From contig NC_087077.1 of NCBI RefSeq assembly GCF_026151205.1, positions 13,304,983-13,368,982 of the forward strand: a stretch of 64,000 nucleotides of DNA, given 5' to 3'. Shown in pieces: positions 17,345 through 49,284 of the stretch (positions are counted from its first letter, which is position 1; every line of letters starts with the position of its first letter). The position numbers and the translations under genes are program-made. The DNA comes from Bolinopsis microptera. Lineage: Eukaryota > Ctenophora > Tentaculata > Lobata > Bolinopsidae. The notes under the pieces were generated by a model. It made no database searches, was not told where the DNA came from, and saw nothing but the letters and a program-made list of their open reading frames with translations.

Positions 17345-17525
17345 GGAATATTTGAATCGAAATATGACAAGACAAAACTTTTTAGATTAGAAAAGTGCAT
17401 ATAATAATTTATTGTAAAACTGAAAAAAATAATAAATATTGCACCCTCTAATTAAACGGTTCAGTCTTTTATCAATAAAAAGAAAAATAGAGTTATGCCA
17501 TAAACATGTTAAACACGCTGGATTA
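17345..17525. repeat. Flanking block shared with 13917-14090
   Basis: AT-rich non-coding DNA about 600 bases downstream of copy B, similar to DNA downstream of copy A. It starts with a TTTGAATCGAA motif and runs through an ATTGCACxxTCTxATTAAAC motif. This supports tandem duplication of gene plus flank. Confidence 0.6.
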
Positions 17526-18116
17526 CAAATTGCTTATTGATCAAAATTTTAATATCGTCGCCTACAAATTAAAAAGGCCTTAGTCGAAAAAGCGCATTAT
17601 ATTGAGATGATCGATTAAAACATATTTTTTTCCAAATCCAGAGTCTGGACCTAGCTGAGGTGCTTAGCAGCAAAATGAATTCCCATATAAATTTTGGTCC
17701 TTTTAAAAAAATAGCTTAGCCTGCCCTTTTAAATATTCTCTCGGATTTAATTTTTTAATCTAAGAGCATTATATAATGAAGATTAAAAAGTCATATACGT
17801 CGACTTAGGTCATTTTCATCAAAAAATTTCCATATTTTGGGACAATGTAGGTATGGTACCCCAGATTACGTATCCGTGTTGCAATTTAAAAGAGCCTAAG
17901 TCGACTTAGGCCCTTTTGATTTGTAGGTGACAATGTTTTAAAAAGTTAAAAAATATCACTACTTTTTTCCTTTTCTCTTTTTCCTTTTTTAAGGACCATA
18001 CCGCCTGTCAAAACATTTAACCATGCTAGATAAATTTGGAAGTGAGGAATCTATCCCTTTACAATACTATATTATTATAATGCTCACAAACCTATAAGTA
18101 TAAAACTTTAGTTACT

Positions 18117-21100
18117 CTAGTCTAGGTTAGTATAGTATACATTGATAAAATACTTTAAATCATGGCTTGTCACTTTATCGCTGTTCACTTTCAGAAAACG
18201 TTCACATGCTCGAGGTAAACCACTAAACAATAATTTGCTCTTTTCAGAACTGACAGCCTCGTGTGATAAGTCTTTGATGAGCGAGGACAACTCTCTGAGG
18301 AAGTTCAAGCTGTAATCTTGAGAATGATCAAGGTAGGAGATGATAATTTCGATTATCAGTGCTGACATAGTCGAACATGATCCTTGAAGGTCTGGATTTT
18401 CCCCAAACAAAGAAGTATTAAATTTGGCGATATGAGAGCATATGAGTTCCGGGTATTTGTCAATCATTGTCCATGTTGCCCTCAGAACATCTATAAACGT
18501 TTCATTATACAAAATCTCAAGATTTTCCTCAGTTTTCAATGGATGTGACGAAAAGAACTTTTTTTTGCCCGAAATTCTTAACGATATCCATAAACCAGTA
18601 ACATTCCAAACCAAAGTTTTAGCAAAAAAGGTTGGATCAATATCATCTAAAACATAGGCAGCAGCCTTCCTTAGGATAACTGCAATTTGGTTTCCCAGGC
18701 GCTGTCCATTAGCATCAGTGTATTCACAATTGCGCTGCTGCTTTTTAGCCAGGGCCGGTAAAAAGTCGAGTAATTTCTCCATAAGAGCCCTGCTATCCAT
18801 CAAATCATTCATACCAAGTATTGTATAAACAAGCTGATGTGTTGCCACTGCATCTGTGTCCTCGATAAAAATAATGGCTTTTCCGATCCCAGGAACAAAA
18901 CCACATTCTTCAAAATCACGCAGAGCTGAGTCGATTCGATTGCATCCCTCATCTTTGATATGCACTAAATTTCTCACAACAATCAATAACAGTCTTCTTA
19001 TGTTGTACTTTAATTTTTCATCAAATTCTTCCTGTAAAATCAATTCTATGCACAGGGGTATACCAGGTAAGATTTGGCTGATGTCTTCCAGAGAAATACG
19101 GTGTTGTGAGTCAGGTTCTGGAGAGAAGCAAGCCATAATCATTCCCCAAACAAGAAATCTTCCGATTGAATCACCATGAAATATCTTAGCATTCTGGATT
19201 AATAGAGCAATAAACCCTGAGGCTCTGAGTTGACTGAAGTCCTCTTCTTTGAACAATCCACTGTCTTCAATGAGAAAGCAAGTTAGCAATAATGATTTTC
19301 TCAGAAAATCAATAGAATGTTTCTGAGAATCTATTAATAATGGAAAGTATCGTTTCAAGCAACGAAAATCTTCGTAAATAATGGAATCTTTATGGTACAT
19401 TATATTCAGCATATGAATTATACCAGTCATTCTTTCATAATGCATCTTTTTCGAGCGCAGTTCAACAGCCAAATGTGATGTTAATTGTTTAAATAGTTTT
19501 TCTCTTACAAATAATTCACGATCTTTTTCATCATATTCTCTCATGTTCCATAGTGCTTTTTGAAATGCAATGTCATCTTTTGCAATTGTGGTTAAATTTT
19601 TGATTACTAATTGATTCAAAACCCGTCGTTCAGCATCAAGTCCATCATTAGGTTTTTCGTGGACAGTATTCTGATCACATTGACTTATCAAAGAAAAATT
19701 ATGAACCATTCCGATTATGATAAACTCCACAAACTCACAATCATAGTTCATTAGATCACTGATTAGCATGAACAACTTGAAAACTGTTCCATCCTTTATA
19801 TGGGACCTCACCATGGACTTACAGTAATTAATGTCACAGTCGTCGGTCAAATATGATGTGAACATGAAATAGATTGACGTATAAAGTCGTTTGTTCTTGC
19901 ACATTTCCAACCTTTCTACAGTTTTAAAAATAGCCGGAAGATTAGAAAAAATGTCACTTTTCCATTTGATGCTTCGTTCGAAAAACCTTGTATTCTTGAA
20001 ATCTGATAGCATGAAAAAATTCAATAAAGAAACAGCAGTTTGTATAATACTATTATCATCATCGCGATAAAGTGTAGGAAGATGTAGTAGGATTGACCAA
20101 ATTGCACCGTTTTCCATCATGCAACCAGTTAACATCGAATTATTATCCCTGCTGCCAATAAAGAACAAAATGTTCACTGCCATTTTTGGAATAGATTGTG
20201 CTTTATTCATGAAAACCGCATAATGCTCTTCGTTTCTCAGTTTCAAAAGGTCACATATTGAAATGATCGTAGATTGGTCCTTGCAAAGCACTTTTAAAAA
20301 CTCTGAAATGTAAATTATCAGGTACTGTATACTATTTAATAAATAAATGATTAAAAGAACCAATTTTAAATTTGCCATATTATGGTAGCCTTTAGGTTCA
20401 AAAATATACCCATAGAGCTCACTTAAAAACAAATCTAAATCAGTAGGCTGTCACTCTATTAATGCTGGAGACCAGTGTCCATACAAAACTTTTACTAGGT
20501 TGCCATTTGGTGTGAGCAATAGCGAACAGCACGCACACTCCTTTGCCCCGTCAACCTATATAATCTAATCTATTCAAAGAGTGACAGCCATACTACACAT
20601 TGAATTAGGATTCCATTAAATATCAAATTGATTTATTGTAAACTTGTTTATTCTGTAATTATAAATGGCATAAAATTGAAATTTTTAGTTTACTGAAATT
20701 TTTGTTTTAAAACTGATTATAATCAGAATGATTAATATTATTATATGATCGAATATTATTCGAAAACTATTCGAAACTTTATGTTCGTTTGTTTGACCGC
20801 CCATGTGCAAATTGAATGAGAAATAAGAAGTTGCATAATAATGCAGCTGGAAACGTGCACACGTGCATGCACAAAGATTAAGGAACGACATCGTGATCGG
20901 TTTTGCTGTCATAATATTATGTTGTGTGGAGTATTTTACATTTTGAAGTGCTGTATCCATAGATCCAATGGATCCTTAGCTACTCCCTAGACTAGGTGAC
21001 ACTGGGATTTGAACCCTGGACTCCTGGACCTTCTGCTCAGAAGGCGGATGCTCTAACCACTAGGCAACCGAGGTAATACTAACAGGCACGGCAGTCATGA

Positions 21101-22604
21101 CCAGAGGCACGTAGTGTGCTTAGAGGGTGTGCCAAGATACGTGACAACTCCTGAGGCACTTCAGGCACGTCTCCAGTCTCCAGAACACTATTTATTATTT
21201 ACAGGGGCTATATGTCATGACCTTTGGAGTCCCAGAAAAAAGTTAAACCTTCATTCGAATAGGGTGTGGTAACCTCATGACGCTTTTTAACTTTTTAAAC
21301 AAATTTTCAATTATATTGTTGATTATTTTGTATGCTATCGAATTGTTCTTACTCACAAAGTGAAGATCGTGACGGGCATATCTGGTAGAAAAATTAATGG
21401 ACCAACTGAATAGGTTTTTTGGTGGAGTTTTGCCTTGAAAGTTTTAACACAGATTCTGGAGCACACGACTTGAGAAGTTTCAAGCCGTTAAATGAAGCTT
21501 CACGAGCAGAAGTTCGAGCTGTTAAATCACCTCCATAACATTAAGAGCTCATTCCCCGAACTACCCTTCTTTGCCAAAACACTGCGTTACAAAGTATCCA
21601 GTCAGGACATACTTTACCCTGTCGAAAACGTCCGAGATCTTGGAGTTATGGTTTCAAGTGATCTTAGCTGGTCGACACACATCGGCAACATGGTACCCAA
21701 AGCGAGGAGCACGCTATCTTGGGTATTCAGTGAGATCAAAACTCGCGACAAGACCGTAATGACTACTCTCTACAAGTCACTAGTAAGAAGCTTACTGGAG
21801 TATTGCTACCCACTCTGGAGCCCTACCAAGGTGACTGAAATACAGCTGATAGAGGGGATGCAAAGAACTTTCACCAGTCGTATTGGCGGTCTTCAACATC
21901 TCAACTACTGGGAAAGACTCGCACAGCTTAAATAGATGTCTCTACAGCGCAGACGGGAGAGGTATATCATCCTCACATCCTGATGATGTGGAAGATTCTC
22001 CATAATGTGGTACCAAACTGCTGTGATATCAAGTTCAAGGTGACACCAAGACAAGGTGATGTAGCTGTTATACCCTCATTGTCAAAGTCAAGTTCCTTAC
22101 GAAACCAGTCACTACACGACAGGTCTTTTGCAGTTCAAGGACCGAAGCTGTGGAACAAAGTGCCTCACACAGTAAAGGCTGATTCATCCTTTGACATATT
22201 TAAGTGTAGTTTGTCGAACTTTCTTGCTTTGATACCGGACAACCCTCCGGTTGCCGGCTACAGCTGCAGTTGGTCAAACTCACTGGTTGACTACTCGCCA
22301 TCCAGGTGATCAGATATCTGATGACCCTTCCGGCTCCACGGATGAACTCAACGAAGTAACGAAGTAACGAAGTAAGTAAATCCGAGGTTAGTTATGAACA
22401 AAAGTAATTTGTTTTCCTTTTTTGGGACACCCTGTGAAATGAATCCAGAAATTATTAACAATTTCTTACCTTTTTCATTAGCTAAAAATGACCAGAGTTC
22501 GTGGCCAGAAGGAAACAATGAGTAATACTCGCTAAAGCTGCGACCTTGTTGGTCGTTTCGCTTGATTCGTTGAGCTGCTGAATAGCATTATAGAGACCTT
22601 CCAT
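18117..22604 (-). CDS. Helical family member B
   Basis: Exon 1 (22604-22470) encodes MEGLYNAIQQLNESSETTNKV and ends at a GTAAGA donor. Exon 2 (20302-18117) is one open frame of about 728 residues ending TNLD. Together they make about 773 residues if one base is added to a five-T run (22484-22488 on the + strand); as written, exon 1 meets a stop just before the donor. Family blocks: FLKVLCKDQSTI, GCMMENGAIW, KNTRFFERSIKW, VRSHIKDGTVFKLFML, KAAAYVLDDIDP, SYLDHSQDYSLNFLRELSS. Mostly alpha-helical by inspection, no known domain recognised, no signal peptide. Intron 1 is large because it has collected a small inverted-repeat element (20446-20589), a tRNA-like SINE head and a truncated LINE (21490-22378). 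Copy A lies downstream on the same strand. Confidence 0.6.
20446..20589. mobile_element. Small inverted-repeat element (MITE) in intron 1 of copy B
   Basis: A 144-base element bounded by inverted GGCTGTCACTCT / AGAGTGACAGCC ends. A TA dinucleotide lies just outside the left end and one base away at the right, so a TA target site is possible but not clean. It has no coding capacity. Confidence 0.6.
20985..21076 (-). repeat. tRNA-like SINE head
   Basis: On the minus strand the sequence has a tRNA-like A box (TTGCCTAGTGGTTAGAGC), an anticodon arm with a TCT-like triplet, and a B box (GGGTTCAAATCCC). The acceptor ends do not pair and the stretch before the B box is expanded, so this is better read as a tRNA-derived SINE or dead tRNA than as a working tRNA gene. 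Confidence 0.5.
21490..22378 (+). mobile_element. 5'-truncated LINE, end of reverse transcriptase
   Basis: The frame at 21492-21935 (VRDLGVMVSSDLSWSTHIGN through LEYCYPLWSP to GLQHLNYWERLAQLK) is the thumb and C-terminal part of a CR1/Jockey-like non-LTR reverse transcriptase. It continues after a stop and frame change at 21983-22309 (DRSFAVQGPKLWNKVP). The copy ends in a short GAAGTAAC repeat (22353-22378), a microsatellite-type 3' tail. It is a dead 5'-truncated insertion lying in intron 1 of copy B. Confidence 0.85.
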
Positions 22605-23764
22605 TAATTGCTTAATATCTTCAGAAATTGCATCCAGAAGTTCTCCCGAGCTGATCCCTAAAATGTGGGTCCTTCTTTCACGAAACTCATTTCACTGTTA
22701 GCTAACCTGTAAGTTTATCATAAAACATTTTTTTGGGTGATTTATTCAGAGATTAACATCAATTATTTTAATAATTATAATATGAGACTTCGATATTGTA
22801 TATTATGATATAATAATTATAATATATATCGAATTCTCATATTATTTCCTGAATAGCTGAATGAATGGCCAGCATTTGTTGGAATAACCATGATTCCATT
22901 ATGAAAATAAAATGATGTCTAGGGTAGTGAAATCAGTTTTGACTTTCCGAGCTGGTCATTTAAGAATTTAACAACGGTATAATAATAATATAGTTTTTAA
23001 CTTTTGTTATTAATTTATCAACTTCTGTATAACTGATCAGCACCCTATTTAGTTACAGCAAAATGTTTTTTTTCAATAATAGAATAAAGTGATGGGCATG
23101 ATTATTGTAAAATCGAGTTTAGATAATATTATAGCAAAAACGAATGAATCATAAAAAATGTAAAACAATCAGATTAACTTAGGTAAAACTATTCTCGTAT
23201 CATAATGTGAATCATCAAAAAATTTAATAAGGGGAATAAGAGATCAACGTCATAAAATATAAAGATAATAAACCTATAAATAAACTTTTAAAAGTTAGAA
23301 ATTGAAACAAATTTAATTGTGCTATTACTTAACCAAATATTTAAAATCATTTAAAAATTTAATGGTAATTGATCGTATCAAAACCAAAGATTTTATTATA
23401 CCAAGAAGTCGCAGAACTTTAGTAACAAAGAGGCACGTTGAGTGTGCACTTGGCTGCATAAAGATGTTTTATCTCTGAATCAAGTTAAATAGGTCATTAG
23501 GCCTCAAGTCACAAATTTCCCTCATACACACATTATAATATAAAATATGGGTGTGCCGTGTGGTCCCCTAGGGCTAGGATTAGCAACTCAAAATGTCAAC
23601 TTAAGTGATTTTAAATTTAATTGTTGAAAATGAAAACTTGAAATCTATCACATGCATTATTCATAACTCATTTTATTCAAACAGAATTTTAGGAACCAAT
23701 CAATTCTTTGATTATGAGCAAGGTTAATGGTTAAACAGTATGAGTGTCGTTAAAAATGTACCAA
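22605..23764. other. AT-rich intergenic stretch between copies B and C
   Basis: Very AT-rich, with short palindromic AT runs at about 22770-22850. No coding frame, RNA gene or repeat with defined ends was recognised. Confidence 0.4.
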
Positions 23765-26336
23765 TTAATCAAGAATATAGCCGTCACACAGTACACCCTG
23801 GTTTACATCAATGAAATACATCAAATTCTCCACAAACACCTTGTTGCTGTTAACATCCAGAAACCGTTTACAGGCCGGCATCAAGTCACGAAACAAAACT
23901 TTGTTTTCCTCAGAACTAACTGAATCATGAGACAAGTCTTTAACAAATGCAGTCAGCTCTATCAAAAAAGACAGGCTCTTATTCTGTGAATGGTCGAGGT
24001 AGGAAATGATTGTTTTTATGATTCTTGTAGAGGTCAGAGCTGTTATATCTTTGTCAGGAGGATGGGCTATAAACAAGAGATTGGGTACAGCAGGTAGTTT
24101 ATCATTAACTACTTCTGGATACTTACCAATTAAACACCAAGTTGCTCGAAGAGTGTCAATGAAGGATTCGTCGCACAAGTCCAGCTGTTCAAAATTCTCC
24201 TCAGTTTCAAAACAGTCCGACGAGAAGAACATCCTATCTCCAAATATTCTAAAGTTTGTCCAGCCAGCTATCACTTGATCAGCGATTACATCCTCGACAA
24301 AGGCGGGATCAAGATAATCCAAAACATATGCTGCAGCCTTCTTCATTATTGAAACACACACTGACATAAATGCTGTTGACTGCTCGAATGAATCACCAAC
24401 CTCCAAAAAGCGGTGCTGTTTTTCCGCTATTTCAGGTAACAAATCAACCAATTCTTTCATGAATTCTCTATTGTCAAATAATTGTTCAAATCTATCCAGG
24501 ACATACATGAGTTGGAATATGATTGCTGAAATGTCAGTCCGAATGAGACCTTGGCAAACGCCGGACACAAAATTAGACTTTTTGAGATAATCTAATTGTG
24601 GCCTGATAGAACAGGTTCGGTCTTCTTTAATGCGTGACAAGTTTGTCACAAGAAACCCACATATTGGAGTAACAGAATGAAGTGATATAAGCTCATCTTT
24701 ACCTGTAAGGACATCCATACACAGAGGAATAACAGGTAGGATCTGATCAATCTCTTCCAGCGTCAACCTGCAGGTCAAATGTTGGGGAGCAATGCACCAC
24801 ATCAATAACGTCATAGCTAACTGTTCTACCATAGGATTCTTACCGTGATATACTTTTACTGTCTCCACTAGCAAAGCAAGTATGTTCGCTGATTTGAGTT
24901 GAGTAAAATGTTCATCTTTGAGTAGATTTTCACTTGTTATAATGTTCGATGCCAACAATATTCGATTTTGAAGAAATGGAGCTGGTATAGCAGTATGCTT
25001 TTTACAGTCCACCATACTAGGTAGATGTGGTAGGATAACACGGACATCTTTCAGTGACATAGGATCTTGATTTTGGATGATAGTTGAAGACGGCCCCACA
25101 GCAATAAGGCACATGATTATGTCAGTCAGTTTAGAAGAATCAGCATTTCTAGAGCTTAGCTCAGACACAAATACGGCAGACATCTTTTTGAAAACTTTGT
25201 TTTCGGTGAAGAATCGAATATCCTCCTTGTCACCGAGCCTCACCAACTTCCTAATCGTGCACGCCGTAATTCTCAATGCAGAGCCTGAAAGGTCTTTGGA
25301 CAAAGTTGGAAAATGTTTGATTGCCATTCGATTTAATAATCGCATCTCGACTTGCTGCAGTTTATATCTGTATGGCGTATATTCAACACAAGTCGATATG
25401 TAAGAGAATGCTCTAATCAGAAGATTTATGTACATGTCAATGAACTGTCTGTCGTGACTCATATCACAAAACATTTTAGTGAACCTAAACAATGTACCAT
25501 CTTCCAAAAGAGACTTAACGGTTGATTTGTAGTACTGCCATTCTTCAGTATTCAAGTAGTTTATGAAAAGCTCTGTTGCTCTTCTCACCAACAGAGTTTT
25601 GAAATTAGCTTTTTCAGCAATATCTATGAAAATAGCCATCTTTGAAAATATAGCATCCTTTATAAATATACTCCTCTCTGAATAAGCAGAGGATTTAAAG
25701 TTGCAGCGAATAACCCGACCAAGAATCATAAAAGTCCAAAATTGGGGGTCTTCTTCTTTTAGCTCAGGAGCGATCTGCAGGAGCTTAGGAATGAACCCAT
25801 TATCTATTAAACGTCCATTGAACCTAGAGCCCTGAAGATTCCATGAAATGAAGTAAATGGTTGCCAGCAACCAGTGAATTCGTTTGTCACCGTCATTAGG
25901 GTCTCTGATATGTTCTTCCTCTAGGAACTCACACAGCGTGTCAACGATCTTTAGGTCCTTCTCCAAGACTTTCAAAAATACTGAAAATCAAGGTCTACAT
26001 TAAAGATTGAAAAATATGCATTGTTTCAAACTTGCATGGTTACTGAAAATTGGATACAATTTAGTATCTACCGCAGCCCAATCACGACTGTACAATATCA
26101 TATTTATCTATGGCATACCTAGCAAATCAACAATGACCATGCAAAAGTTGAATAGCTGAACAGCTTATTTATCATTAGGATTTTATGAACCCACCTTTCC
26201 GAGCCGCCTCGTGAGGGGGACTCTCAGGAAAAGTAGAAGGATCTAAACTAGTACATATTGTGGAGAGACCATCCAACTTGCTATTCATAGATACTCCGTT
26301 ATTGAATTTACGGATCGCTCGATGTAAATCTGTCAT
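23765..26336 (-). CDS. Helical family member C, intact
   Basis: Exon 1 (26336-26195; MTDLHRAIRKFNNG) and exon 2 (25980-23765) join in phase and encode 785 residues with no break, making this the reference copy for the family. The protein is a long run of amphipathic helices without signal peptide, transmembrane segment or catalytic signature. Shared blocks with the other copies: FLKVLEKD, GFIPKLLQIAPELK, SLLEDGTLFRFTKMF, PVIPLCMDVL, KAAAYVLDYLDP, IDTLRATW, SYLDHSQNKSLSFLIELTA and VKDLSHDSVSSE. The regular spacing of helical blocks is compatible with an ARM/HEAT-type solenoid, hence perhaps a scaffold or ligand-binding role, but that is inference. Exon 1 is short and phase 1, as in A and B. 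Its 3' end is nearly identical to that of copy D, so C and D are a recent pair. Confidence 0.82.
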
Positions 26337-27129
26337 CACAACTCCTGATTATTTTAAGTTATTTCAAATGATCGTTAGGTTACTTTATAAATTATCTTAT
26401 ACATAAAATTAATTTAATGCAATTAACCAAGAACGTTGTCACGCAATAAACAATTAATTGGCAGCTAACACGATGATAAAATGATATTGAAATCATAAAT
26501 TTGAAAGTCAAATTGAATTATTATTATATATAATACATATAATTATGGTAATAGTGATTTACATCTGCTCAATGAACGAATCATAGCCAAATGCAAAATT
26601 ACATTCAATGCTAGGTTCATAAAATAAACCTTAGGCTCTTTGCAAAAGTCAAAAATGTTAAAATAAAATAGCTGTAAAAGAAGAATAAATTGTAAAACGT
26701 TAAAAAGCTGCCACATCTTAACTATCATAGAGAAACATATTTTGTAAATTAGTAAAAAGTGATTTTGAAAAAACGGTATATTGTCCAAATGTCCATCGAC
26801 ACTCAGTAAAAAAAACTTGAAACTAAATTGCAATAATATGTACAACATTTTAATACATAAATTGTGATGAAATTGGTTACAAATACTTTAATTTATGCTT
26901 TAATTATAAAATGATATTTTTTTCAATAATAATAAATGTAAATGACGTAAAAATGAAATGTTCTTTTTTTATATTTTTCTATTTTTTTAACATTTAGTCA
27001 TGCAACGCCTTATAAAATCCTTATGGTAATCATCATGCTCTTCATCTACCAGTAATTTGTAAATGCACTTTATCATGCTTCGTGAGATTCCACATTTATA
27101 CAGCATGAGAGTTGTAATGAATGTAGCAC
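26337..27129. other. Non-coding spacer between copies C and D
   Basis: AT-rich. An open minus-strand stretch at 26543-26848 is low-complexity (Phe/Leu/Ile) and shows no family similarity, so I do not call it a gene. Confidence 0.4.
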
Positions 27130-28660
27130 TTAATCAAGAATGTATCCGTCTCACAGCACACCCTGGTTAACATCAATGTAATACTTCAAATTCTCCACAA
27201 ACACCTTGTTGTTGTTAACGTCCAGAAACCGCTTACATGCAGGCATCAAGTCACGAAACAAAACTTTGTTTTCCTCAGAACTGACCGAATCATGAGACAA
27301 GTCTTTTACAAATTATGCAGTCAGCTGTGTTAAAAAATATAGACTGTATTCCTCAGAATTATGAAGGTAGGAAACCACTGTTTGTACTATTCTTGAGGAC
27401 GTCAAATCGACAATATCAGTATGGTTAGATGCTCCAAAGTCTGAAGAGCTGAATTTTGACATTCCTGTTTTGATGATCTCAGGATATTTTCCGACCATAC
27501 TCCATGTTGCCCTGAGAGTATCAACATATATTTCATTACAAATTTCTAAAATCTCAAAGTCCTCTTTGCAACTCAATGGGTCCGATGAAAAGAACGCCTT
27601 TTGCTCAGATGTTCTGAACAGAAACCAGTGACATAAAACGTAATCAGCAACAACAGTGACAAAAAATGCCGATCAATTTCATCCAAAACAAAAGCAGCAG
27701 CTTTTGTAAATATGACCACGATTTCTTTGTGCAATGCATGGTTAACAGAATCGTACTGATTTAAAAAATATTTGAAACTATTTTCCTTATTCGATAAAAT
27801 TGGCAGATACTCAACAAACTTTTTCAAAACCGTTTTGTTGTCAGACATGTACGCCGAAATTCTAATAATCTTCACAATTCCAAAAAGTAAGCTTGGTTTT
27901 TCAATCAGGCTTATAGCCCTACTAATACCACAAACAAGATCACATTTTTGCAGAGCATTTAGCTGCGCATAAATGGGATGAATCTTGTTACTTCTGAAGT
28001 TGTCTAGATGATAAAACAGTAATATTATGGTATGAATCAGCATCTCTTTCGAATTTTCGGGAAACTGGCTGTCAGGAGACTTCAGGGCATCAATGATTAC
28101 TGGTATGCAGGGGATGAATTGATCTATGTCTCTAATAGATGGAAGTTTTTCCTTAAGATGGTTTGGCAAAAGGCAATATGACAGGAGTTCCCAAATAGAG
28201 TTCTCAATTTGATAGTCTTTGCCCCGATAATCTTTGGCATTCTGGACCAATATGGGAATAAGATTTAAATCTTTCAATTGATTGAAGTGATCCTCTTTAA
28301 GCAAAGGGTGGACAAAAACTATATGGTTTATAAGGTATAACGAGTCACCAAATGAATCAGCACGGAGAGCTAAATGCTTTCCAGGGTCTATGAGATCAGG
28401 CAAGTAAGGAACAACAACACGAACATCAGCGATAGTGAGGAATGTTTCCAGTTGACCAAGCAGAGTCAGGGTTTTCAGAAGGAAGGACACTCTGCTGTAG
28501 TCAATATCTTTGCCATGTAGCTCAGAAATCAGGACAGCAAAAAGCTTCTTGTGGAGCTTTTGCTTCACATAGAATTTAATAGCACTCTCATCACTTGCAG
28601 TATTAACATGAAAAATTATATTATCTAATGCCAACTGAAATGATGATGTATCCTTTGAGA

Positions 28661-29243
28661 AGACTTTACCTATCTTGGTTCTAGAATCAGAGACAGTGAG
28701 AGTGATATCAGGGTTAGGAAAGGAAGAGCATGGGGAGCATGCCACACTCTCAAAAAACTTTGGAAATCTAACCTTAGAAAGTCTATCAAAACCAGAGTGT
28801 TCACAGCACTAGTCGAGTCGGTGCTTCTATACGGTTCTGAGACTTGGACTATGACGAAAAGGCTAGAGAAGATGGTTGATTGTTGCTATACACGAATGTT
28901 AAGAATGGCCCTTAACATCAATCAATATCGAGACCATGTCAGCAACCACAGTCTGTACGGTGATCTTCCCAAAGTCAGCTCCAAGATAACCCAACGAAGG
29001 CTCAGACTTGCAGGTCATGCTCACCGACATCCGGAGCTGACACTGAACAAACTGATCCTCTGGAAGCCGAGTCATGGACATACTAACAGGGGGCGACCTT
29101 ACTTAACACTACTAGATAACCTAAAAGCAGATACTGGGCTGAAATCAGTAGATGAGATAGCTAGACTGATGGAGGACAGAAAGCTGTGGAGAACTGTTGT
29201 CAATGGATCTCGGGAATACTACCCGCCTTAAGTCAAGTAAGTC
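28661..29243 (+). mobile_element. 5'-truncated LINE with target duplication
   Basis: 583 bases inserted into copy D, flanked by an 11-base direct duplication ATCCTTTGAGA at 28650-28660 and 29244-29254. The frame encodes the C-terminal end of a non-LTR reverse transcriptase: RVFTALVESVLLYGSETWTM, TRMLRMALN, HSLYGDLPK, RRLRLAGHAHR, LILWKPSHGHTNRGRP and the end at EYYPP, followed by a short AAGTAAGT-like tail. The frame is open, so insertion is fairly recent. It belongs to the same broad family as the fragments at 32060-32300 and 54841-55475. Confidence 0.92.
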
Positions 29244-29989
29244 ATCCTTTGAGACCATGGCAAAATATTTTAAGAAAATCCTATTCATCATTAGAAATTC
29301 TTTATCGAGCCCATGGTTTAGACTATTATAAACAGAATTACAGTCACAATGGACAATGCGAGTGAAAGCATGGATCATACTGTACAAATTATCCTCTTCA
29401 AAATGTTCATTCGAGCAAGACAAGTGCATAGACATTTTCAAAAATTTATAAACTGTTCCATTTTTAATGTGTGATCTTACAATAGACTTGTAGTATCCTT
29501 TTTCACCGTTTATCAAATACATGGAGTAAGTTGAAGTCAAAAGGGGCTGTATCTTTTTGATAACAGCTCTATCACATACATCAGCAAAACTAAACAAAAT
29601 TGGAATATTAGAAAATATATCCCCTTTTCGTGCAATGCTCCGTTCCCGGCAAATTTTCGATTGGCAGTCCATGTTTACAAACACGCATAGGATGAATAGT
29701 ATGTATTGACGGCTTAAGTCATCATCTATTTTTGGTAGCACTTTCAAGATTACCTCTATGACACCATTTTCAATAAAACAATGATGAACCTCCTGGCCCA
29801 TCAATCTACCATTCGTTTGATAAGATATGACATATAGCATAAACAAGAATTGCACCCGTTGTTTCGTTTTGGCGGACGCTAGATTTCCATTTCACTATAA
29901 CTATTAATATAAGCTCTAAAGGCCTCCCCCAGCCTCGGATCTTAGGATTGGATTTGCAAATATTCCTAAGACAAACTGCTTAAGAAAAG

Positions 29990-30430
29990 CTAAGACAGCA
30001 AAAAAAGCTGAGACAAAATTTAAGCGAACCTGAGATGTCAAAATAAGCTAAGACAGCGAAAATTCTTAAGACAAAATTTAAGGAAACCTAAGACAGCGGA
30101 AAATCCTGAGACAAAATTTAAGGAAACCCAAGACAGCGAAAAATCCTAAGACAAAATTTAGGAAATCCTGAGACAGCGAAAAATCCTGAGACAAAATTTA
30201 AGAAATCCCGAGACAGCGAAAAAACCTGAGACAAAATTTAAGAAATCCCGAGACAGCGAAAAAACCTAAGACAAAATTTAAGAATCCTGAGACGCGCGAA
30301 AAAACCTGAGACAAAATTTAAGAAATCCCGAGACAGCGAAAAATCCTGAGACAAAATTTAAGAAAACCTGAGACAGCGAAAAATCCTGAGACAAAATTTA
30401 GGAAAACCTGAGACAGCGAAAAATCTTTAG
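29990..30430. repeat. 40-bp tandem array, left arm
   Basis: About 11 units of 40 bases built on GACAAAATTTAAG and GAGACAGCGAAAAA. The right arm carries the inverted array at 33965-34330. Confidence 0.9.
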
Positions 30431-31204
30431 ATACAATTTATACAATAACAACAAGAATATACATGGATATTACATCTTTTAATTTCTTGCAAAGAATATA
30501 ATAAATACAATATTACTAGGTATAGTAGGAATGTCAATAAGTCAATAGAATTTGTTTGAAATCTCTATGTGCCTGCTAATGAAGTGAGTATCCCAGATCA
30601 TATCTTTACAGGTAGGACTGTATAATGGGGGCCCGATGTTATAGCGGACATCATCCCCCCCCCCCTTACCCCTTCTTACCCCCAGTTCCATAGCGGATAT
30701 TATGCCAAATTATTGGACGGAGATCGTCAACTAATATTTCTTCGGATATTTCTCCGGTTTGCAGTTCCATAACCTTATCCGGAAACCATCTACGGTAATT
30801 TTGTTGATTCTCACAGAGCAAAGTGCAAAGAAACTGCCGCAAACTGCTACAATCTCCGAGAAATCTATTTATTGACTAGCTTGCTAAAATTCATCGTCAA
30901 ATTACCGCTGCTCGAGTTACCTAGCCAGGCCCATTTCAGTTTTGAGTACTAGAGTCGGTTATCTAGTCAAAGCCTAGCTTTTTTGTAACTTGCAAGTGCT
31001 TTTGCGGATTGTCGTGGATTTCGGCAAATAGTCGTGGATTTCGGCGATATTTTCAGATTATTCTTCAATGTCCTCAAACCTGAGCACTGGGACTACTTAA
31101 GTTTTTGCTACTATCTGAATTATTTGCTCAAGCTACTGGCTCGCTAGGTTCAAAGGTTTATTTCCTATTTATCATGAAAAAAAAAATTGTGCTGGGTAAA
31201 AGTT

Positions 31205-31290
31205 TACACGGTGTTCACGCAGGTTTGAACTCCCGACCTCGCGCAGAGCTAGCCGATCGCCTGGCCGCCAAGCTACTCGGGTGATGTACT
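31205..31290 (-). repeat. tRNA-like SINE head in left arm
   Basis: Minus strand has AGTAGCTTGGCGGCCAGGCG (A-box-like) and GGGAGTTCAAACCTG (B-box-like). The right arm has the same unit on the + strand at about 33095-33170. This is a tRNA-derived module carried inside the foldback element. Confidence 0.5.
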
Positions 31291-31330
31291 TATGAAATTT
31301 TTGATGTAATTATATATTTACCCCTTTTTA

Positions 31331-31637
31331 CCCCCAGTTCCATAGCGGATATTATGCCAAATTATTGGACGGAGATCGTCAACTAATATTTCTTCGGATA
31401 TTTCTCCGGTTTGCAGTTCCATAACCTTATCCGGAGACCATCTACGGTAATTTTGTTGACTCTCACAGAGCAAAGTGCAAAGAAACTGCCACAAACTGCT
31501 ACAATCTCCGAGAAATTCCCGGAGAGCTTCATCTCCGTATAACTGTATAATACAGTAGACGGAGCCGGAGAATCATCACCGTAGAAATGGACCTCCGTCT
31601 CATAATTTGGCATAATATCCGCTATGGAACTGGGGGG
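31331..31637. mobile_element. Small inverted-repeat element nested in left arm
   Basis: About 307 bases with ends CCCCCAGTTCCATAGCGG / CCGCTATGGAACTGGGGG and TTA on both sides, the size and 3-base target type of PIF/Harbinger MITEs. A half copy lies further out at 30676-30862. Confidence 0.7.
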
Positions 31638-32059
31638 TTAATCTGATTAAAAGCTACAAAAAATTCCAGAAATGAGATGGCTGGTTAAAACCTACCTTTG
31701 GAAAGCTCTGATGAACCTGCCTGTGGAGAAATAAACGCACTTAACTTCACCTCAATTGAGCAATAACTATTTATCGCTTATTACTTCATTTATTTAGGAT
31801 GTATAGTGTGCTTCGTAACTAATTTATTATTACAAAGTTTACTTTCTAATAAGCTAAAACGACAACTAATCTTTCGTTTTACTCCCTACTGTACTGGTTT
31901 ACTCGTCAATCCAGGTATATGAGAATGTGTGAGAATGGTCTTGAAACTATGAAAAGAGGGAATTAGCGGTTTTGGGGACGGGAAGATTACAGCATCAAAA
32001 ACGGGTAGGATGTAGGAGCCTAGGAGGGTAATTATAATAATAAAGGTACTGGGGGATTG

Positions 32060-32300
32060 AACAACTTACTTACTTTCGGCGATCCTCGATCGAACTCCCA
32101 TTCACTGTCTGCCTCCACACGTCTTGATCGCACATAACAGTTCGAAGGTCGTCCAACTGGAGCCCAGTGTCACGAGCTACTACGTCCAGGAAGGTGAGTG
32201 GTCTCCTTCCACAGTTCCACGGCCGGACTGGGTAAGTCGCCAGGGGAGGATAGAGGAGATAACTTGGTCAGAAGCTCTCATGCAGTGCCCAGCAAATCTG
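32060..32300 (-). mobile_element. LINE 3' end inside the foldback centre
   Basis: On the minus strand, RNRFAGHCMRA and, in another frame, FLDVVARDTGLQLDDLRTVM followed by DVWRQTVNGSS are the C-terminal end of a non-LTR reverse transcriptase. It ends in a GTAAGTAAGT tail like that of the LINE at 28661-29243. One frame change and the truncation make it dead. Confidence 0.8.
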
Positions 32301-32316
32301 TTACGCCTAACCCCCA

Positions 32317-32366
32317 TGTTATTATACTGAGATCAATTGACTCAGTGTAATTGCATGGGGGGTCAA
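32317..32366. repeat. Short hairpin in foldback centre
   Basis: CCCCCATG and the following AT-rich arm are inverted as GCATGGGGGG around a centre containing TCAATTGA, forming a stem of about 23 bases with a few mismatches. Confidence 0.6.
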
Positions 32367-32740
32367 TTGTAAGCCGGGGGGCCACCTGCTTCAATCTCCC
32401 CGTCCCCAAAACTGCTTCCCTCTTTTCAGAGTTTCAAGACCATTCTCACACATTCTCATATACCTGGATTGACGAGTAAACCTGTACAGTAGGGAGTAAA
32501 ACGAAAGATTAGTTGTCGTTTTAGCTTATTAGAAAGTAAACTTTGTAATAATAAATTAGTTACGAAGCACACTGTACATCCAAAATAAATGAAGTAATAA
32601 GCGATAAATAGTTATTGCTCAATTGAGGTGAAGTTAAGTGCGTTTATTTCTCCACAGGCAGGTTCATCAGAGCTTTCCAAAGGTAGGTTTTAACCAGCCA
32701 TCTCATTTCTGGAATTTTTTGTAGCTTTTAATCAGATTAA

Positions 32741-33047
32741 CCCCCCAGTTCCATAGCGGATATTATGCCAAATTATTAGACGGAGGTCCATTTCTACGGT
32801 GATGATTCTCCGGCTCCGTCTACTGTATTATACAGTTATACGGAGATGAAGCTCTCCGGGAATTTCTCGGAGATTGTAGCAGTTTGTGGCAGTTTCTTTG
32901 CACTTTGCTCTGTGAGAATCAACAAAATTACCGTAGATGGTCTCCGGATAAGGTTATGGAACTGCAAACCGGAGAAATATCCGAAGAAATATTAGTTGAC
33001 GATCTCCGTCCAATAATTTGGCATAATATCCGCTATGGAACTGGGGG
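32741..33047. mobile_element. Small inverted-repeat element nested in right arm
   Basis: Inverted counterpart of 31331-31637, with the matching half copy at about 33500-33705. Confidence 0.7.
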
Positions 33048-33094
33048 TAAAAAGGGGTAAATATATAATTACATCAAAAATTTCATAAGTACAT

Positions 33095-33170
33095 CACCCG
33101 AGTAGCTTGGCGGCCAGGCGATCGGCTAGCTCTGCGCGAGGTTGGGAGTTCAAACCTGCGTGAACACCGT
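33095..33170 (+). repeat. tRNA-like SINE head in right arm
   Basis: Mirror of the left-arm module, differing at one base near the B box (GGTTGGGAG against GGTCGGGAG). Confidence 0.5.
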
Positions 33171-33964
33171 GTAAACTTTTACCCAGCACAATTTTTTTTT
33201 TCATGATAAATAGGAAATAAACCTTTGAACCTAGCGAGCCAGTAGCTTGAGCAAATCATTCAGATAGTAGCAAAAACTTAAGTAGTCCCAGTGCTCAGGT
33301 TTGAGGACATTGAAGAATAATCTGAAAATACCGCCGAAATCCACGACTATTTGCCGAAATCCACGACAATCCGCAAAAGCACTTGCAAGTTACAAAAAAG
33401 CTAGGCTTTGACTAGATAACCGACTCTAGTACTCAAAACTGAAATGGGCCTGGCTAGGTAACTCGAGCAGCGGTAATTTGACGATGAATTTTAGCAAGCT
33501 AGTCAATAAATAGATTTCTCGGAGATTGTAGCAGTTTGCGGCAGTTTCTTTGCACTTTGCTCTGTGAGAATCAACAAAATTACCGTAGATGGTCTCCGGA
33601 TAAGGTTATGGAACTGCAAACCGGAGAAATATCCGAAGAAATATTAGTTGACGATCTCCGTCCAATAATTTGGCATAATATCCGCTATGGAACTGGGGGT
33701 AAGAAGGGGTAAGGGGGGGGGGGGGGGGGGGGAGATGATGTCCGCTATAAAGCTATAACATCGGGCCCCCATTATACAGTCCTACCTGTAAAGATATGAT
33801 CTGGGATACTCACTTCATTAGCAGGCACATAAGAGGTTTCAGACAAATTCTATTGACTTATTGACATTCCTACTATACCTAGTAATATTGTATTTATTAT
33901 ATTCTTTGCAAGAAATTAAAAGATGTAATATCCATGTATATATTCTTGTGGCTATTGTATAAAT

Positions 33965-34330
33965 TGTATCTAAAATTTTTTCGCTGTCTCAGGTTTTCTT
34001 AAATTTTGTCTCAGGATTTTTCGCTGTCTCAGGTTTTCTTAAATTTTGTCTCAGGATTTTTCGCTGTCTCGGGATTTCTTAAATTTTGTCTCAGGTTTTT
34101 TCGCGCGTCTCAGGATTCTTAAATTTTGTCTTAGGTTTTTTCGCTGTCTCGGGATTTCTTAAATTTTGTCTCAGGTTTTTTCGCTGTCTCGGGATTTCTT
34201 AAATTTTGTCTCAGGTTTTTTCGCTGTCTCGGGATTTCTTAAATTTTGTCTCAGGATTTTTCGCTGTCTCAGGATTTCTTAAATTTTGTCTTAGGATTAT
34301 TCTGCTGTCTTAGGATTATTCTGCTGTCTT
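33965..34330. repeat. 40-bp tandem array, right arm
   Basis: Inverted counterpart of the left-arm array, about nine 40-base units (CTTAAATTTTGTC ... TTTTCGCTGTCTC). One unit in each arm has the same CGCGCGTCTC variant, showing that the arms copied each other rather than diverging on their own. Confidence 0.9.
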
Positions 34331-35599
34331 AACTTTTGCACCTGTGTCTCAGGAATTTTTGCAAATCTAATCCTAAGATCCGAGGCTGGGGGAGGCCTCT
34401 CTAATCAGCTCACCTTATAATAATCATATTGAAACATCAGTAGACTACGCGTGCCACATTCAAGTTGGGCTTATTACAAAATACTATACATTACTAGTAT
34501 ACATTAAAATACGCTAGTGCCGCGCATTCATTGACCACATACTAGCTATACACCACATCTCCGCAAGCAATCCCCGTGCGCGTGCGCGCGGCAAGTTGAC
34601 ATGGAAACGAACGGAAGCAAGTAAGGAACACGACATATATTTGACCCACCTACCGCTATTTCCAAAATCCACATTTTTCTGCAAAAACGTCCATTCGTAA
34701 CCTTTCACTATTGCCTTTTTTCAAAAGGGTGAAAAGGAAAAAATATGTAGAGGGTATGCGGACCTCCTCTGTCAGATTCGTCCTTGAAAAGCCTTATTAT
34801 TGTTGAGACAGACTGCATGTCTTGAGACAGCACCTTTAGAACTTCTGAAATCAAAATGATCAATATGAGCTTGACCAAAGTGTTAGTCAACGAGTGGTAT
34901 TCAAGTATTCAGATACTTTGCAATAATATATTATTACATTGTAATTTGCATGCTGTTCTAACTTATAATAATAGATAAAGAATCTATGAAGATTTAATCT
35001 GATGATTCAAAATTGGTTCATTAAACAAACCATTTTGTTCCATACTGAAATTACTGATGCAAAGATCCTCAATTGGAGGGCTCCCTTCATTGACGGTATC
35101 AAAAATGTCCATTAATGCTTCTATTTTGAAGCAGTCGCCTTCTGCATAGTTGAACCGGGATATTGCCCTCTGTAACTTCTCCATGCCAATAAAGCGGCTA
35201 GATGTTTTTCCACAGATTGATGAGATTGTAATTCAGAATTCGTGACATCTGGTTCAAATAAATACGATTAATTAATTATTAATGATTTAATGCCAATTAC
35301 TCATACTAGAAGCATAAACTTAATATTATCATAATAAATATAACTTACAGATTATGGTAAGAGCAGGATTGGAGCATGACAACTATTTTTAAGTTTACTA
35401 GGCTGAACGTCAATAAATTCAAATAAATACATTTTTCGAATAAAGTTTTAATTAGGACTTAATATAATAATTCAAATTTCATACATTTTCATTCTAATTA
35501 ATTCTATCAGATTATTACAACTTCACAAAGCTACGTTACATTATATAATATACTTCAAAATTCACGTACTTGGACCCATGCAAATCTATTGCTTCAAAT

Positions 35600-40711: not shown

Positions 40712-43700
40712 TCACTTCTTCTTCCTGGGAGATCTCCGGTTGTTTCTGTTTTCGTTGCTCGGACCCTGTACCACGTGCATCTCACCCCCTCTAATATCCT
40801 CTTTCATCGGACTACTGTTTATCGTGGCCTGGCTCTGTGGGAAGGGTTTCAATTTAAAGGTTATAATATTCAAGCTTGCTATTTCACAATTTCAGAACAG
40901 TTAAACCTCTTCCTTTAACATTTAACAAGAAACGTTAAAAAACGATATCTCAACTAAGCTTAATATAATAAAGTTAACAGTAACCTGTAAATGGAACATG
41001 AGATCTTTGATTTGTTCCCTCAGTTCCTGTGTCTCAGCAGCGTGTCTCTCTTGAGAAGCTTGCAGTTCACTGTTACTTGCCACCACCTTTGTTATCCACT
41101 CCTTCTGGTTCGCCTAAATAATGTGGGATTGGATTTGAGGAAAACCAACTATCACAAAATGGGCTTCAACATATAACAATCCAACATCAGGTGACTAGAA
41201 ATTCCTAACACCACGTCAAGATTTAAGGATTTAATGCCACAAAGAAACCGTACCTGTAAACACTTATTAAGTTCCATCTCCTCGCTCAACTCTTTTGACA
41301 GAGTGTTAAACTTGTTAGACAGCAGATCAATCCTCTTCTCAAACCTCCTCCTCTCCTCCTCACTTTTCTTCTCCAGTCTCTTCCTCTCTATCTCACTTTG
41401 CTCGTACAGTTCTTTGTACTTGTCCTTTTCCTGTGTTACTTTTTGTACCTGAATGGTGGAAAGTAGGACCTTTGTGGAAGGATTAAGACAAAGAGGTTCC
41501 TCTGTATAATATTACCAGCCTAAAATTAATGTTATGGTGCAAACTCCAGGGAAAATAGAAATCTACACACCTCGCCCTCCACGATAGCTATGCGCTCCAT
41601 AGCCTCCTGTTCAACAAACAGAAGTTTCTTCTCGAAGAATTCCCGCTGTGACTCCAGCTGCTGGGTCAGGAGGTAACTGTACTCCAGGGTTAGAGATTCA
41701 AACTTCTCTTCTAGTATCCCATCTGAAATTGACATTGTCGGGGGAATTCAGATAGTCATAGTTGTGATGACTGTAAAAGGAAGGAAAGATCAGATTCATG
41801 ATAATGCGCACAATATTTGTCAAATAATTCCCACTATCTAACCTTGGTCTTGAACAGCAACTAATTTGCCATCGGCTTTGTTTTGGATGAGTCTGTGCAC
41901 GTAATTATCTCCAACATAATCCCAGACACACCTCTGTTCCACATCCATACTGTATGTGTGATTAGTCCTCTCGAAGTGCCCTCTGGCGTGGCCCCCTTCG
42001 TACCTACATAATAATACATTCTTAGACTTGAAGTAGAAACCAATGTTTCACGATCTATAATTTGAGTAGCAAACTGCACTCAAATATTGTGACTCTGCGA
42101 ATCTCGAATCAGTTTCGTTAAACATGGTGTCATTTGGAGGTTAAGAATAAAACAGGCATTTGCAAATGTGAGACTCAACAAGTGAGACTCAACAAGTGAG
42201 ATTCAACAAGTAAGACTCAACAAGTGAGACTCAACAAGTGAGATTCAACAAGTAAGACTCAACAAGTGAGACTCAACAAGTGAGATTCAACAAGTAAGAC
42301 TCAACAAGTGAGACTCAACAAGTGAGATTCAACAAGTAAGACTCAACAAGTGAGACCCAACAAGTGAGACCCAACAAGTGAGACCCAACAAGTGAGACCC
42401 AACAAGTGAGACCCAACAAGTGAGACCCAACAAGTGAGACTCAACAAGTGAGACCCAACAAGTGAGACACAACAAGTGAGACCCAACAAGTGAGACCCAA
42501 CAAGTGAGACCCAACAAGTGAGACCCAACAAGTGAGACCCAACAAGTGAGACCCAACAAGTGAGACTCAACAAGTGAGACCCAACAAGTGAGACTCAACA
42601 AGTGAGACTCAACAAATGAGACTCAACAGGTGAGACCCAACAAATGAGACTCAACAAGTGAGACTCAACAAATGAGACCCAACAAGTGAGACTCAACAAG
42701 TGAGACTCAATAAGTGAGACTCAACAAGTGAGACTCTTGAACAAGCTCTCGAAACGATCACGTTACATTCTAATAAGTAAGAAATTAAGATAATTGTGCG
42801 TTACAATGTAAGCGCAATGGCTGCAATGCAATAAGAGTATTGATCATGTACAATGTGCTAGTCTCTTGTTACAGTTGCTGATGGATGAGCTGATACCGGA
42901 ACGAGGAAAAGCACTGGTTTAAAAAGATAAGATAAGCAGGCACTAATTGAGTAATTAATTAAGTAGAACCACTAGGCTTGCACTGCCGGCTGAGTTACCA
43001 CAGAGAGACAATTTGTTAAATATGACAATAACGCTCAAAACCGCGTGACAAGAACAGATCTACAAATTATATTCACGGCGAGATTACGTATTGCACACGA
43101 GACAATGACTAGTATTAATACAGTGCTTGCTTATTAATCTATTAATGAGTAAAAGCGCACACTGCACTGTTGTTCTCCGTGATAAACGTAAATCGTGGGA
43201 GAATAGTTGGCTCTTACCTGCCGCAGCCTACATATCCACATATCAGACATAGCCATAGCCCCTCTGTATTCCCACATACCTGGGGAGAGATGGGTTATTA
43301 CGGGGATTCCAGCATTTTGTTATTTATCATAAGATAAAGTTCGGTTTTAGAACGTGACAACAGAAAACTAAAAACTGTAACTTGTTGGATAAGCATAACA
43401 TTAACATTGAGGTATTGAAATCAACATAATGTGATTTGAATAAAACTACATCAGTTCAATTCGCAGTCTTTGATTAGTTTCATAACTGGAGTTTCAAATT
43501 ACAAATATTTCAGATTAGTTGACAAATACGCCAATATTGATGTCTGAGTTTCGAGGCTGAGTGTAAGCGTTAAAAAGGTAGCAGCTCATCGAGAGGGAAA
43601 GCTAATTTTATGATGAATATTAATAAATTGTTTAAAGGTAGCTCCTGTTGAGCGGATTTAGCTGGAACTAGTCCAGGGCAAATTCTCCACACCCCCCCCC

Positions 43701-45892
43701 CCCCCCCTCACAAGTAATACTAACCATGCAGGAGTGAGAAGACTCCTCGGGCGGGACAGCGTGGAATCTGCAAACTGGACATGTAGTACACTTGCTCATA
43801 CACTCACAATGGAAAGTGTGGTTACACAAAACTGTCAGCATTCCTGTCGTGCTTTCGTCTGAGGGGGAGGATATGATAGATAACACAACACAAGAGTACT
43901 GGCAATAACGCAACACAAGAGTACTGGCAATAACACAACACAAGAGTACTGGCAATAACACAACACAAGAGTACTGGCAATAACACAACACAAGAGTACT
44001 GGCAATAACACAACACAAGAGTACTGGCAATAACACAACACAAGAGTACTGGCAATAACACAACACAAGAGTACTGGCAATAACACAACACAAGAGTACT
44101 GGCAATAACACAACACAAGAGTACTGGCAATAACACAACACAAGAGTACTGGTAATAACACAACACAAGAGTACTGGCAATAACACAACACAAGAGTACT
44201 GGCACAGATTAAAGAAATACAGTGATATATATGTGTGTACGTTTTGATTAATTATGCAAGAAATATTGAAATAGCAGTTAATACCGACAAATTGTTCTAA
44301 ATTCCTTGATTAGTTAAATAATAATTACTGACAAACCCATTCGTTCCAGACAGACAGCACATTGAGGTAGCTCTATCAGAGGTCCAGCTGCAAGGGATTT
44401 CATGTGCACCTAATGAGATAGAGATTTCCAGCTAGACTCACTACAATAATCTTCAATAATCCGTAAAATGGTTCTAGAGTCTAGGTATGAAATTCCATTT
44501 GAAGCTTGTGTGATTGAAAACACGTTGTACTGTATAATGTGCAGAGCAAATCATAAGTCCTGACAGTTAAGAATACAACGTAGTTAATAAATTACAATAC
44601 TAAACTTTAAATGAAATTCAGAAGAAATATCCTTGATTTGGATTCCTAACCTGTTAAAGGATTATTATAGTAATTTAAGTTTGTAACTACCTCTGTCTTG
44701 CCAAACTCAATGGAAGTTACAAAAGCGAGGTGGCAGATACTGTCTTCCAGTGTGTTGTACGGCTGATCTTGATGGTTCTGATAAAAACCTTCTGCCATAT
44801 CCTCGTGCTCAAACCGAATGAGCACCTGTAATATTGTAATTCTATACAACTCAGCTCATCCTTAAATCAAGCCCTGGTCTTGAACACATCACAATGTCAA
44901 CTTAGAAAACATGACACTGTTCATGTTTAAACACAGTTTGAGATTAACAATAATGAAAGAAGGTAGTTAAGGTTAAAAACCATGAATGTGTGGGGATTTC
45001 TGTCCCGCACTATCCTAATTCCATTGATGTTGTCTGTGTATGGCCCCAGGAACCCCAGTATGTCAGTCAAGTTGAAGATGGTGGGAACAGCCAACATGCA
45101 TACCAGATCTGTCTTGAAGTTTTCTCCAGCTGTAAAATTTAGGTCTAGCTATAATTTGAAATGAATACACGAAATAGAACTTATTTGAGGTGAGAGACAT
45201 GAAATATAGATATTAAATCAAAGAAAGGATCAATCCGGCCAGTCATAAAGCTCAAAGAAGTTGAAATATTGACTTACATTTGGAAAAGTCATTAAAGAAG
45301 TGCATTATTCCATGGGTGGTCTGAGCATCAGGATTACCACAAGTAAAACTACATTTTCCTTCAACCTCACACTGTTGACTATCAGCTACTGAGGCCATTG
45401 ATTCAGAAAATTTTCTCTCCAAACTTGGTGCTGATTCCTTGGTTTCATGACTGAGTGGTTCCTTGGTTTCTCTGGAGGGTGCTGGTTCTTTGGTTTCTCG
45501 GAAGGGTGCTGGTTCACAAGTTTCACTGTTCATCTTACTAGCAGGACTTTTGAGGTACTCTTTGATTTGATAGTCGTTCAGTTCAAAGACAGTACGTTCT
45601 ACTTCATCTAAATAACAGCGATTCATCCATTTGGAAAATACAACATCTTTTATGTTGTATGAACAATAAATTTGAAGGTATTTAAGATTTATGTGTGCTG
45701 AAATATTGGACAAGTGATATATAGACGCAGTTTTCTTTTAATATAAAACTGTGTTACAAATTGAACTGGGATCTATATGATAGTAATTATTAAACCAAAG
45801 TCTTATAAGTATGACACTACCACCAACTTACCTTCAATTGAGAGAACGTGTGAAGGATACTCGCAGAAGTAAATGTAAAGTGCCACTCTCAT
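40712..45892 (-). CDS. BRAP: BRCA1-associated protein (IMP), RING and ZnF-UBP ubiquitin ligase
   Basis: Twelve exons in order: 45892-45832, 45607-45278, 45129-44981, 44825-44691, 44409-44337, 43858-43725, 43279-43218, 42003-41843, 41722-41571, 41448-41254, 41113-40985, 40834-40712; all phases fit, giving 567 residues (human 592). BRAP is a Ras-responsive E3 ligase that restrains MAPK signalling by holding KSR. Order of parts: BRAP2/RRM-like domain (THGIMHFF, VLIRFEHEDMAEGF, ICHLAFV), RING (CAVCLERM, LCNHTFHCECMSKCTTCPVC), ZnF-UBP ([33 protein letters not shown] by exons 6-8, then VWDYVGDNYVHRL), coiled coil from about residue 365, and a basic tail RRSPRKKK. Exon 2 has three or four tandem ETKEPAPS-like repeats not seen in human BRAP. 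Two introns hold long minisatellites. Confidence 0.93.
42172..42735. repeat. 14-bp minisatellite in BRAP intron 7
   Basis: About 40 units of GTGAGACTCAACAA with variants (GAGACCC, GAGATTC, AGTAAGA). The first 170 bases show a 42-base higher-order unit of three 14-mers; later units drift to GAGACCC. Confidence 0.95.
43691..43708. repeat. Poly-C run in BRAP intron 6
   Basis: About 17 consecutive C (G-run on the transcribed strand) close to the exon 6 donor. Confidence 0.8.
43881..44206. repeat. 25-bp minisatellite in BRAP intron 5
   Basis: Thirteen units of ACACAAGAGTACTGGCAATAAC plus three bases, period 25, almost identical to each other. The array ends about 20 bases before the RING exon. 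Confidence 0.95.
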
Positions 45893-48345: not shown

Positions 48346-48417
48346 TTTCTGAAACCCATATCATACACTAGCTACAGAATTATTCATCATCTACTTATTA
48401 TAGCAAGTACAACAATC

Positions 48418-49237: not shown

Positions 49238-49284
<47 letters not shown>

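Follow-up and report, generated by a model that had tools for sequence, protein, structure and literature searches.

Structure of the element

The DNA analysed here is a stretch of 64,000 nucleotides of Bolinopsis microptera (assembly GCF_026151205.1, contig NC_087077.1, positions 13,304,983 to 13,368,982 of the forward strand), called the window in the following, and it holds at positions 29920-34398 a foldback element of 4,479 bp that lies in a dispersed repeat, R. The element has inverted arms of about 2 kb with AGGCCTCCCCCAGCC termini, its outermost sequence being AGGCCTCCCCCAGCCTCGGATC and the reverse complement, and the hexamer CTCTAA is directly repeated on both flanks (Table 1). This duplication, which a first-pass annotation made from the letters of the sequence had described, is exact on both sides. 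The inner arms (30655-31962 and 32416-33723) pair over 1,308 nt with 99% identity, and the outer portions pair too: an alignment of the outer 700 bp has 616 columns with 96.6% identity. Each arm has an end stretch at its tip, followed inwards by 40-bp units in tandem, by a further part, and by two copies of a 306-bp unit, the first truncated and the second complete. The longest stop-free stretch in the interior of the element is 89 codons.

The 306-bp unit resembles a miniature inverted-repeat transposable element with long inverted ends, and it occupies mirrored positions in both window arms and likewise in the 16.2-kb parent described below, which indicates that copying or homogenisation of the arms took place once the unit had landed. 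By eye, the sequence at 31221-31290 and its mirror at about 33093-33160 look tRNA-like (GTTCAAACC box); ARAGORN and Rfam report nothing there, and an Rfam scan of the window at the gathering threshold gave no match.

A dispersed family with empty sites

The assembly searched amounts to 264.65 Mb and is divided into 232 contigs, of which 13 (C1-C13) are long as far as their coordinates show. With the first 22 bases of the element and up to 3 mismatches, 58 ends were found genome-wide, and the same query read backwards, used as a control, gave 0. The ends form 23 facing pairs (less than 17 kb apart) and 12 single ends. Both ends were read in 17 of the pairs, namely the window element and 16 others, and every one of these 17 copies is flanked by an exact 6-bp duplication, each different from the rest and together 79% A+T, against 62% for the window. 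The number of ends compared with the control, together with the 17/17 exact duplications, excludes chance. The clear ends claimed in the first-pass annotation are thereby borne out, and the check it had proposed, a search for many copies with the same end and 6-base duplications, gave a positive answer.

Three of the 12 single ends were characterised. One of them (C9:2858207) marks a copy of about 2.7 kb whose far end has decayed, and the other two lie in a palindrome on C2, the flanks of which are also inverted copies, without a direct duplication. This palindrome (C2:1466955-1522135, read except for 1512501-1514199; stretches L031, L049, L051, L050, L052 and L032) is at least 55 kb long, with blocks 86-99% alike, and contains nested reverse transcriptase frames and a KDZ (Kyakuja/Dileera/Zisupton) fragment; it could be an old inverted duplication or a join of two haplotypes.

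The flanks of the window element, joined at one CTCTAA, align through the junction to a second copy of R in the window, where the context of the unfilled site reads AAG-CTCCAA-TCAGCTCAC. The hexamer of this proposed matching empty site is where it had been reported, but the copy is an imperfect twin: the blastn pieces are 80-92% identical and about 113 extra bases lie near the site, so that taken alone it is the weaker proof. The stronger proof comes from R copies elsewhere in the genome, which show the pre-insertion sequence with a single CTCTAA. The joined 276-base query had 627 candidates in the first look, of which 40 were scored and gave 40 matches, and all 40 span the junction (query base 120) in single alignments of about 224-244 bases with 94-100% identity; the best empty site, C2:10508776-10509009, is 100% identical over 234 bases (query bases 43-276). 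The mobility asserted at first pass is confirmed by the 17 exact duplications and by the 40 uninterrupted R matches.

Deletion derivatives of a 16.2-kb parent

The largest pair of ends, C1:13698479-13714689, encloses 16,211 bp with the same ends and the target site duplication TTGTAA. Its arms, the left one in the stretch L011 and the right one in L012, are 92-97% identical to those of the window element (96.7% over 2085 for the left window arm against the right parent arm), and the spacer of the window element at 31972-32308 is 99.7% identical to L012:4564-4900. The parent arms enclose about 10.5 kb that has no counterpart in the window element, and measured at the deletion junction 10.9 kb of the parent is missing. 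The same relation was read in the family at large, since the middle is a join of distant parent points in 12 of the 16 non-parent two-ended copies read, with six distinct junctions between a left point in L011 and a right point in L012 (Table 1). At these junctions the right-hand parent parts are 98.6-100% identical; five have overlaps of 1, 1, 4, 3 and 6 bases (the 6-base overlap contains a mismatch and, by eye, 3 exact bases), and the sixth has an 8-base filler.

The amount of core that is retained varies between copies on both sides (131 + 76 bases in L020, for example), which argues that the short copies were derived from a core-bearing element and not that a core was inserted into a ready-made foldback. 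The derivatives thus go back to six or more independent deletions, each of 10.3-10.9 kb, and the one with junction 2836/4553, which is present at six sites, probably spread after its deletion. Judged by its junction, the window element is an internal-deletion derivative, similar in this respect to Ds, of a parent type of about 16 kb. This relation, which the deletion junctions show, was missing from the earlier reading.

Several longer copies were considered as autonomous elements and rejected: L015, L019, L030 and the C2 stretch L032 have reverse transcriptase frames of the non-long-terminal-repeat (non-LTR) type inside, and L018 holds another foldback family. This second family, nested at L018 1003-5595 (C3:11433536-11438128), has ends TAGTAAGGGGAAAAG, arms of about 1.35 kb and a possible 3-bp duplication CTT, and at least 227 matching stretches were seen genome-wide (39 scored of 2,638 candidates).

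Coding content of the parent

On its plus strand the parent carries, at L011:5522, a 94-amino-acid (aa) exon with the start MAEIHGA, which also lies next to family arms in each half of the C2 palindrome. A diverged version occurs on C5, immediately preceded by 67 bases of arm repeat with 75-81% identity. A further plus-strand frame (L011:7309-7752) has relatives at no fewer than five places on C11, and the one read, L046, gives a 76% identical protein. The exon region of the parent also contains a dispersed 426-bp repeat, present at a minimum of 17 other places with 98-99% identity, some of them shorter, which separates two parent parts that adjoin in the C11 relatives.

The longest frame, 1,038 aa on the plus strand (L055:1-3114), spans L011 and L012. 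Its middle (L012:1-1878) has no second DNA copy (9/9 candidates scored), which is unlike a captured host gene; its first part (L011:8511-9122) has none among the matches listed, the best 40 of 499 candidates scored, and L012:1879-2676 has four partial relatives with nearly identical borders. Two pieces of the frame had no match in Pfam at E values up to 5, and a scan of viral contigs with it found no relative. By eye, the sequence GLLHVVKNIINH in this frame resembles a D-P-x-H-x-x-K motif, which may speak for a P/Galileo-like origin. The first-pass annotation had named a transposase gene with the same ends as possible support, and this is answered in part: a parent with these ends and a long frame exists, but no recognised transposase was found in it. 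We regard the 1,038-aa frame as the best candidate for the transposase, in a copy that looks damaged. It is conceivable, though doubtful, that this frame encodes the enzyme of an as yet undescribed transposon superfamily of animals, marked by AGGCC termini, 6-bp duplications and repetitive arms of 2 kb, that continually yields foldback derivatives by internal deletion.

Other features of the window

On the minus strand, 14410-29891 holds five long open frames (662, 777, 740, 411 and 248 aa). Inspection by eye suggests that they are related and would form a cluster of paralogous genes; a VRSHIKDGT-like motif is shared by three of them, and the last overlaps repeat R. The region 47713-54588 resembles, by eye, a non-LTR retrotransposon, in which 47713-49938 would be the gag-like portion and 49871-54588 would encode endonuclease and reverse transcriptase. 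Tandem arrays lie at 42168-42736 (14-bp units, 40.6 copies) and 43880-44204 (25-bp units, 13 copies).

Table 1. Parts of the window element, its target sites, and the deletion junctions of the family (window positions unless L011 or L012 is given)
Feature	Position	Strand	Basis
Left part of host repeat R	29842-29913	+	Commonest R alignment start, query base 43 (range 35-48), equals 29842; alignment to second copy
Target site duplication CTCTAA, left	29914-29919	+	Sequence, exact repeat
Left arm (terminal inverted repeat, about 2.0 kb), AGGCCTCCCCCAGCC start	29920-31962	+	Inverted repeats; matches both parent ends
40-bp-unit array of left arm, 9.8 copies	30051-30440	+	Tandem Repeats Finder and repeat search
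Truncated 306-bp unit (186 bp), nested in left arm	30679-30864	+	blastn; mirrored at 33514-33699
306-bp unit with inverted ends CCCCCAGTTCCATAGCGGATATTATGCCAAATTAT, nested in arm	31331-31636	+	blastn and flanks; mirrored at 32742-33047
Spacer between arms, 453 bp	31963-32415	.	Inverted-repeat and parent alignments
Internal deletion junction, window element	32308 (L012:4564 joined to L011:2802)	.	Junction alignment
Right arm (terminal inverted repeat)	32416-34398	-	Inverted repeats
40-bp-unit array of right arm, 8.5 copies	33977-34317	-	Tandem Repeats Finder
Target site duplication CTCTAA, right	34399-34404	+	Sequence, exact repeat
Right part of host repeat R	34405-34744	+	Alignment to second copy
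Unfilled target site CTCCAA in second R copy (60621-61177)	61094-61099	-	Sequence and alignment
Junction in L016, L022, L024, L025, L027, L029	L011:2836 / L012:4553
Junction in L020	L011:3269 / L012:4488
Junction in L014	L011:3120 / L012:4299
Junction in L021	L011:2839 / L012:4495
Junction in L013, L023, with eight extra bases	L011:2935 / L012:4687

Discussion

The window element is best explained as a non-autonomous, foldback-shaped DNA transposon with AGGCC...GGCCT termini, repetitive terminal inverted repeats of about 2 kb and 6-bp duplications, derived from a parent of about 16 kb by loss of the middle, and we give this reading a probability of roughly 0.86. The features of the foldback class are present, i.e. 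long repetitive inverted arms with little between them, dispersed copies, and a target site duplication whose length is constant, and so are those of a Ds-like element, as both ends are shared with a larger element and the middle joins two distant points of it. Structurally it is a foldback transposon and by origin a deletion derivative, with a candidate transposase that fits no group checked. Loss of about 10.9 kb of parent middle left the two arms almost back to back, and the short copies would move by cut-and-paste, with a transposase encoded by the parent acting in trans on the arm ends. This enzyme may be the product of the 1,038-aa frame or of the gene holding the 94-aa exon, and the deletions themselves could stem from abortive repair, in line with the short overlaps at most junctions.

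Some of our results weigh against this reading. The parent type is known from one copy read, the junction could not be located in four of the 16 (L017, L018/L019, L026 and L028), and six of the 23 pairs (on C12, C41 and C51, and three on C13) fall outside the copies read. A scan of 10 distinct parent frames found no known transposase domain; the search of the PDB at E values up to 5, made with the 851-aa piece (L012:1-2553) only, gave no match, and a single-sequence structure model of L055:562-2001 (480 aa) was useless, with a mean predicted local distance difference test (pLDDT) score of 33. The long frame stops at L012:2553 and its likeness to the relative L047 continues in another frame (L012:2417-3154), both parts lying within one frame in L047; together with the 426-bp repeat in the upstream exon region, this break suggests that the parent copy may be dead. 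The long frame may also have a diverged host homologue, the comparison here being at DNA level.

Among other origins, the most serious, though still improbable, is that of a non-autonomous Polinton/Maverick derivative, in which Polinton-type inverted repeats are moved by a Polinton integrase. Polintons beyond the vertebrates have a bare AG start, and the 6-bp duplications and AG...CT termini of the window family agree with such elements, as does the full size of about 16 kb. Genes for PolB are indeed present at 20 places in this genome (37/37 candidates scored), but the shortest distance between one of these places and one of the 58 ends is 240 kb, and the PolB, integrase, ATPase and capsid families had no match in the 10 parent frames. 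For the vertebrate Mavericks treated in PMC8097293, the account given there is of 6-bp duplications, inverted repeats of 46-1,447 bp and (AG)3 or (AGT)2 end motifs, from which the AGGCCT ends and the 2-kb arms of the window family differ. As a separate observation, three pairs of PolB genes are opposite in orientation and 8-11 kb apart (C7:6691702/6702995, C9:6595755/6606125 and C9:663553/671611), as if Polintons stood head to head here. Somewhat less probable again is a KDZ-type transposon moved by the large CxC4-bearing proteins of this genome. What speaks for it is a KDZ-type zinc-finger stretch that lies in the degraded C2 copies, at a distance of 2.4-2.8 kb from either end of the palindrome. 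It shares its strand with the 94-aa exon and is 64-69% identical to residues 153-224 of the protein L048, which matches Pfam CxC4 above the cut-off (3e-8). L048 also scores above the cut-off for UCH and just below it for the Ulp1 family, and L053 resembles it. Yet comparison of the long parent frame with L048 and two L053 frames gave hhalign probabilities below 1 (99.1 for L048 against L053, the positive control), and the KDZ core in the centre of the C2 palindrome, 96% identical to C6:12463386, looks like a separate element. Only three of 29 KDZ-like places (34 rows, neighbours merged), all on C2, lie within 280 kb of a family end, and two more are on C4, a contig without one. Moreover, the KDZ groups as described in PMC12730594 have 7- or 8-bp duplications. 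L048 itself (4133-8605; C1:12515132-12519601) is an open frame of 1,491 aa with a CxC4 part, which is KDZ-associated, and UCH-like and Ulp1-like parts, and has relatives on C8, C10, C1 and C2; around it, a search for ends and duplications gave one 6-bp candidate with poor inverted ends and none of 7-9 bp. A search with PF18758 had no match in the genome, nor in its 14 controls, and is hence uninformative.

A P/Galileo-like foldback transposon has a slightly lower standing still. Galileo of Drosophila, a member of the P superfamily, has very long Foldback-like inverted arms, target duplications and, in some copies, insertions of other elements, but its duplications, as given in PMC4168063, are of 7 or 8 bp with the consensus GTATTAC, whereas all 17 here are of 6 bp and A/T-rich; the ends differ as well, no P-type transposase was found in the parent, and the long frame had no Pfam match at the E value already mentioned. 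That the structure is an assembly palindrome, which the first-pass annotation had dismissed, or a misjoin of haplotypes has a negligible probability. The C2 palindrome extends over its flanks and may have arisen by such a misjoin, but for the window element the 17 copies at different sites with exact duplications and the empty R sites refute it.

Other known systems share single features with the window family. The Tetris foldback of Drosophila virilis, as described in PMC4079207, likewise has noncoding short copies and arms in which tandem repeats are combined with a flanking and an inner section, but with 220-bp units instead of 40-bp units and duplications of 8-10 bp instead of 6 bp, and its authors assign it to Mutator. 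IS3EU and GingerRoot have 6-bp duplications and were rejected on their termini, which PMC10045372 gives as TA..TA (sometimes TG..CA in GingerRoot) against AG..CT here. Dada, with 6-bp duplications in some families, was rejected since, according to PMC3706591, it is without terminal inverted repeats and inserts in small RNA genes, against the 2-kb arms and dispersed sites of the window family. For hAT6, a group named in PMC12730594, the duplication length agrees, and the scan of the parent frames gave no hAT match. Each of the groups Polinton, KDZ, IS3EU, Dada and Galileo disagrees with the family in one or more of the features tested. A literature search found no paper on the family of the window element, and no wider claim is made.

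Foldback elements are often orphans without a known parent, and here six junctions tie the short copies to one larger parent type. The origin of a foldback family can therefore be followed at single-base resolution, and the parent supplies a specific candidate for its transposase.

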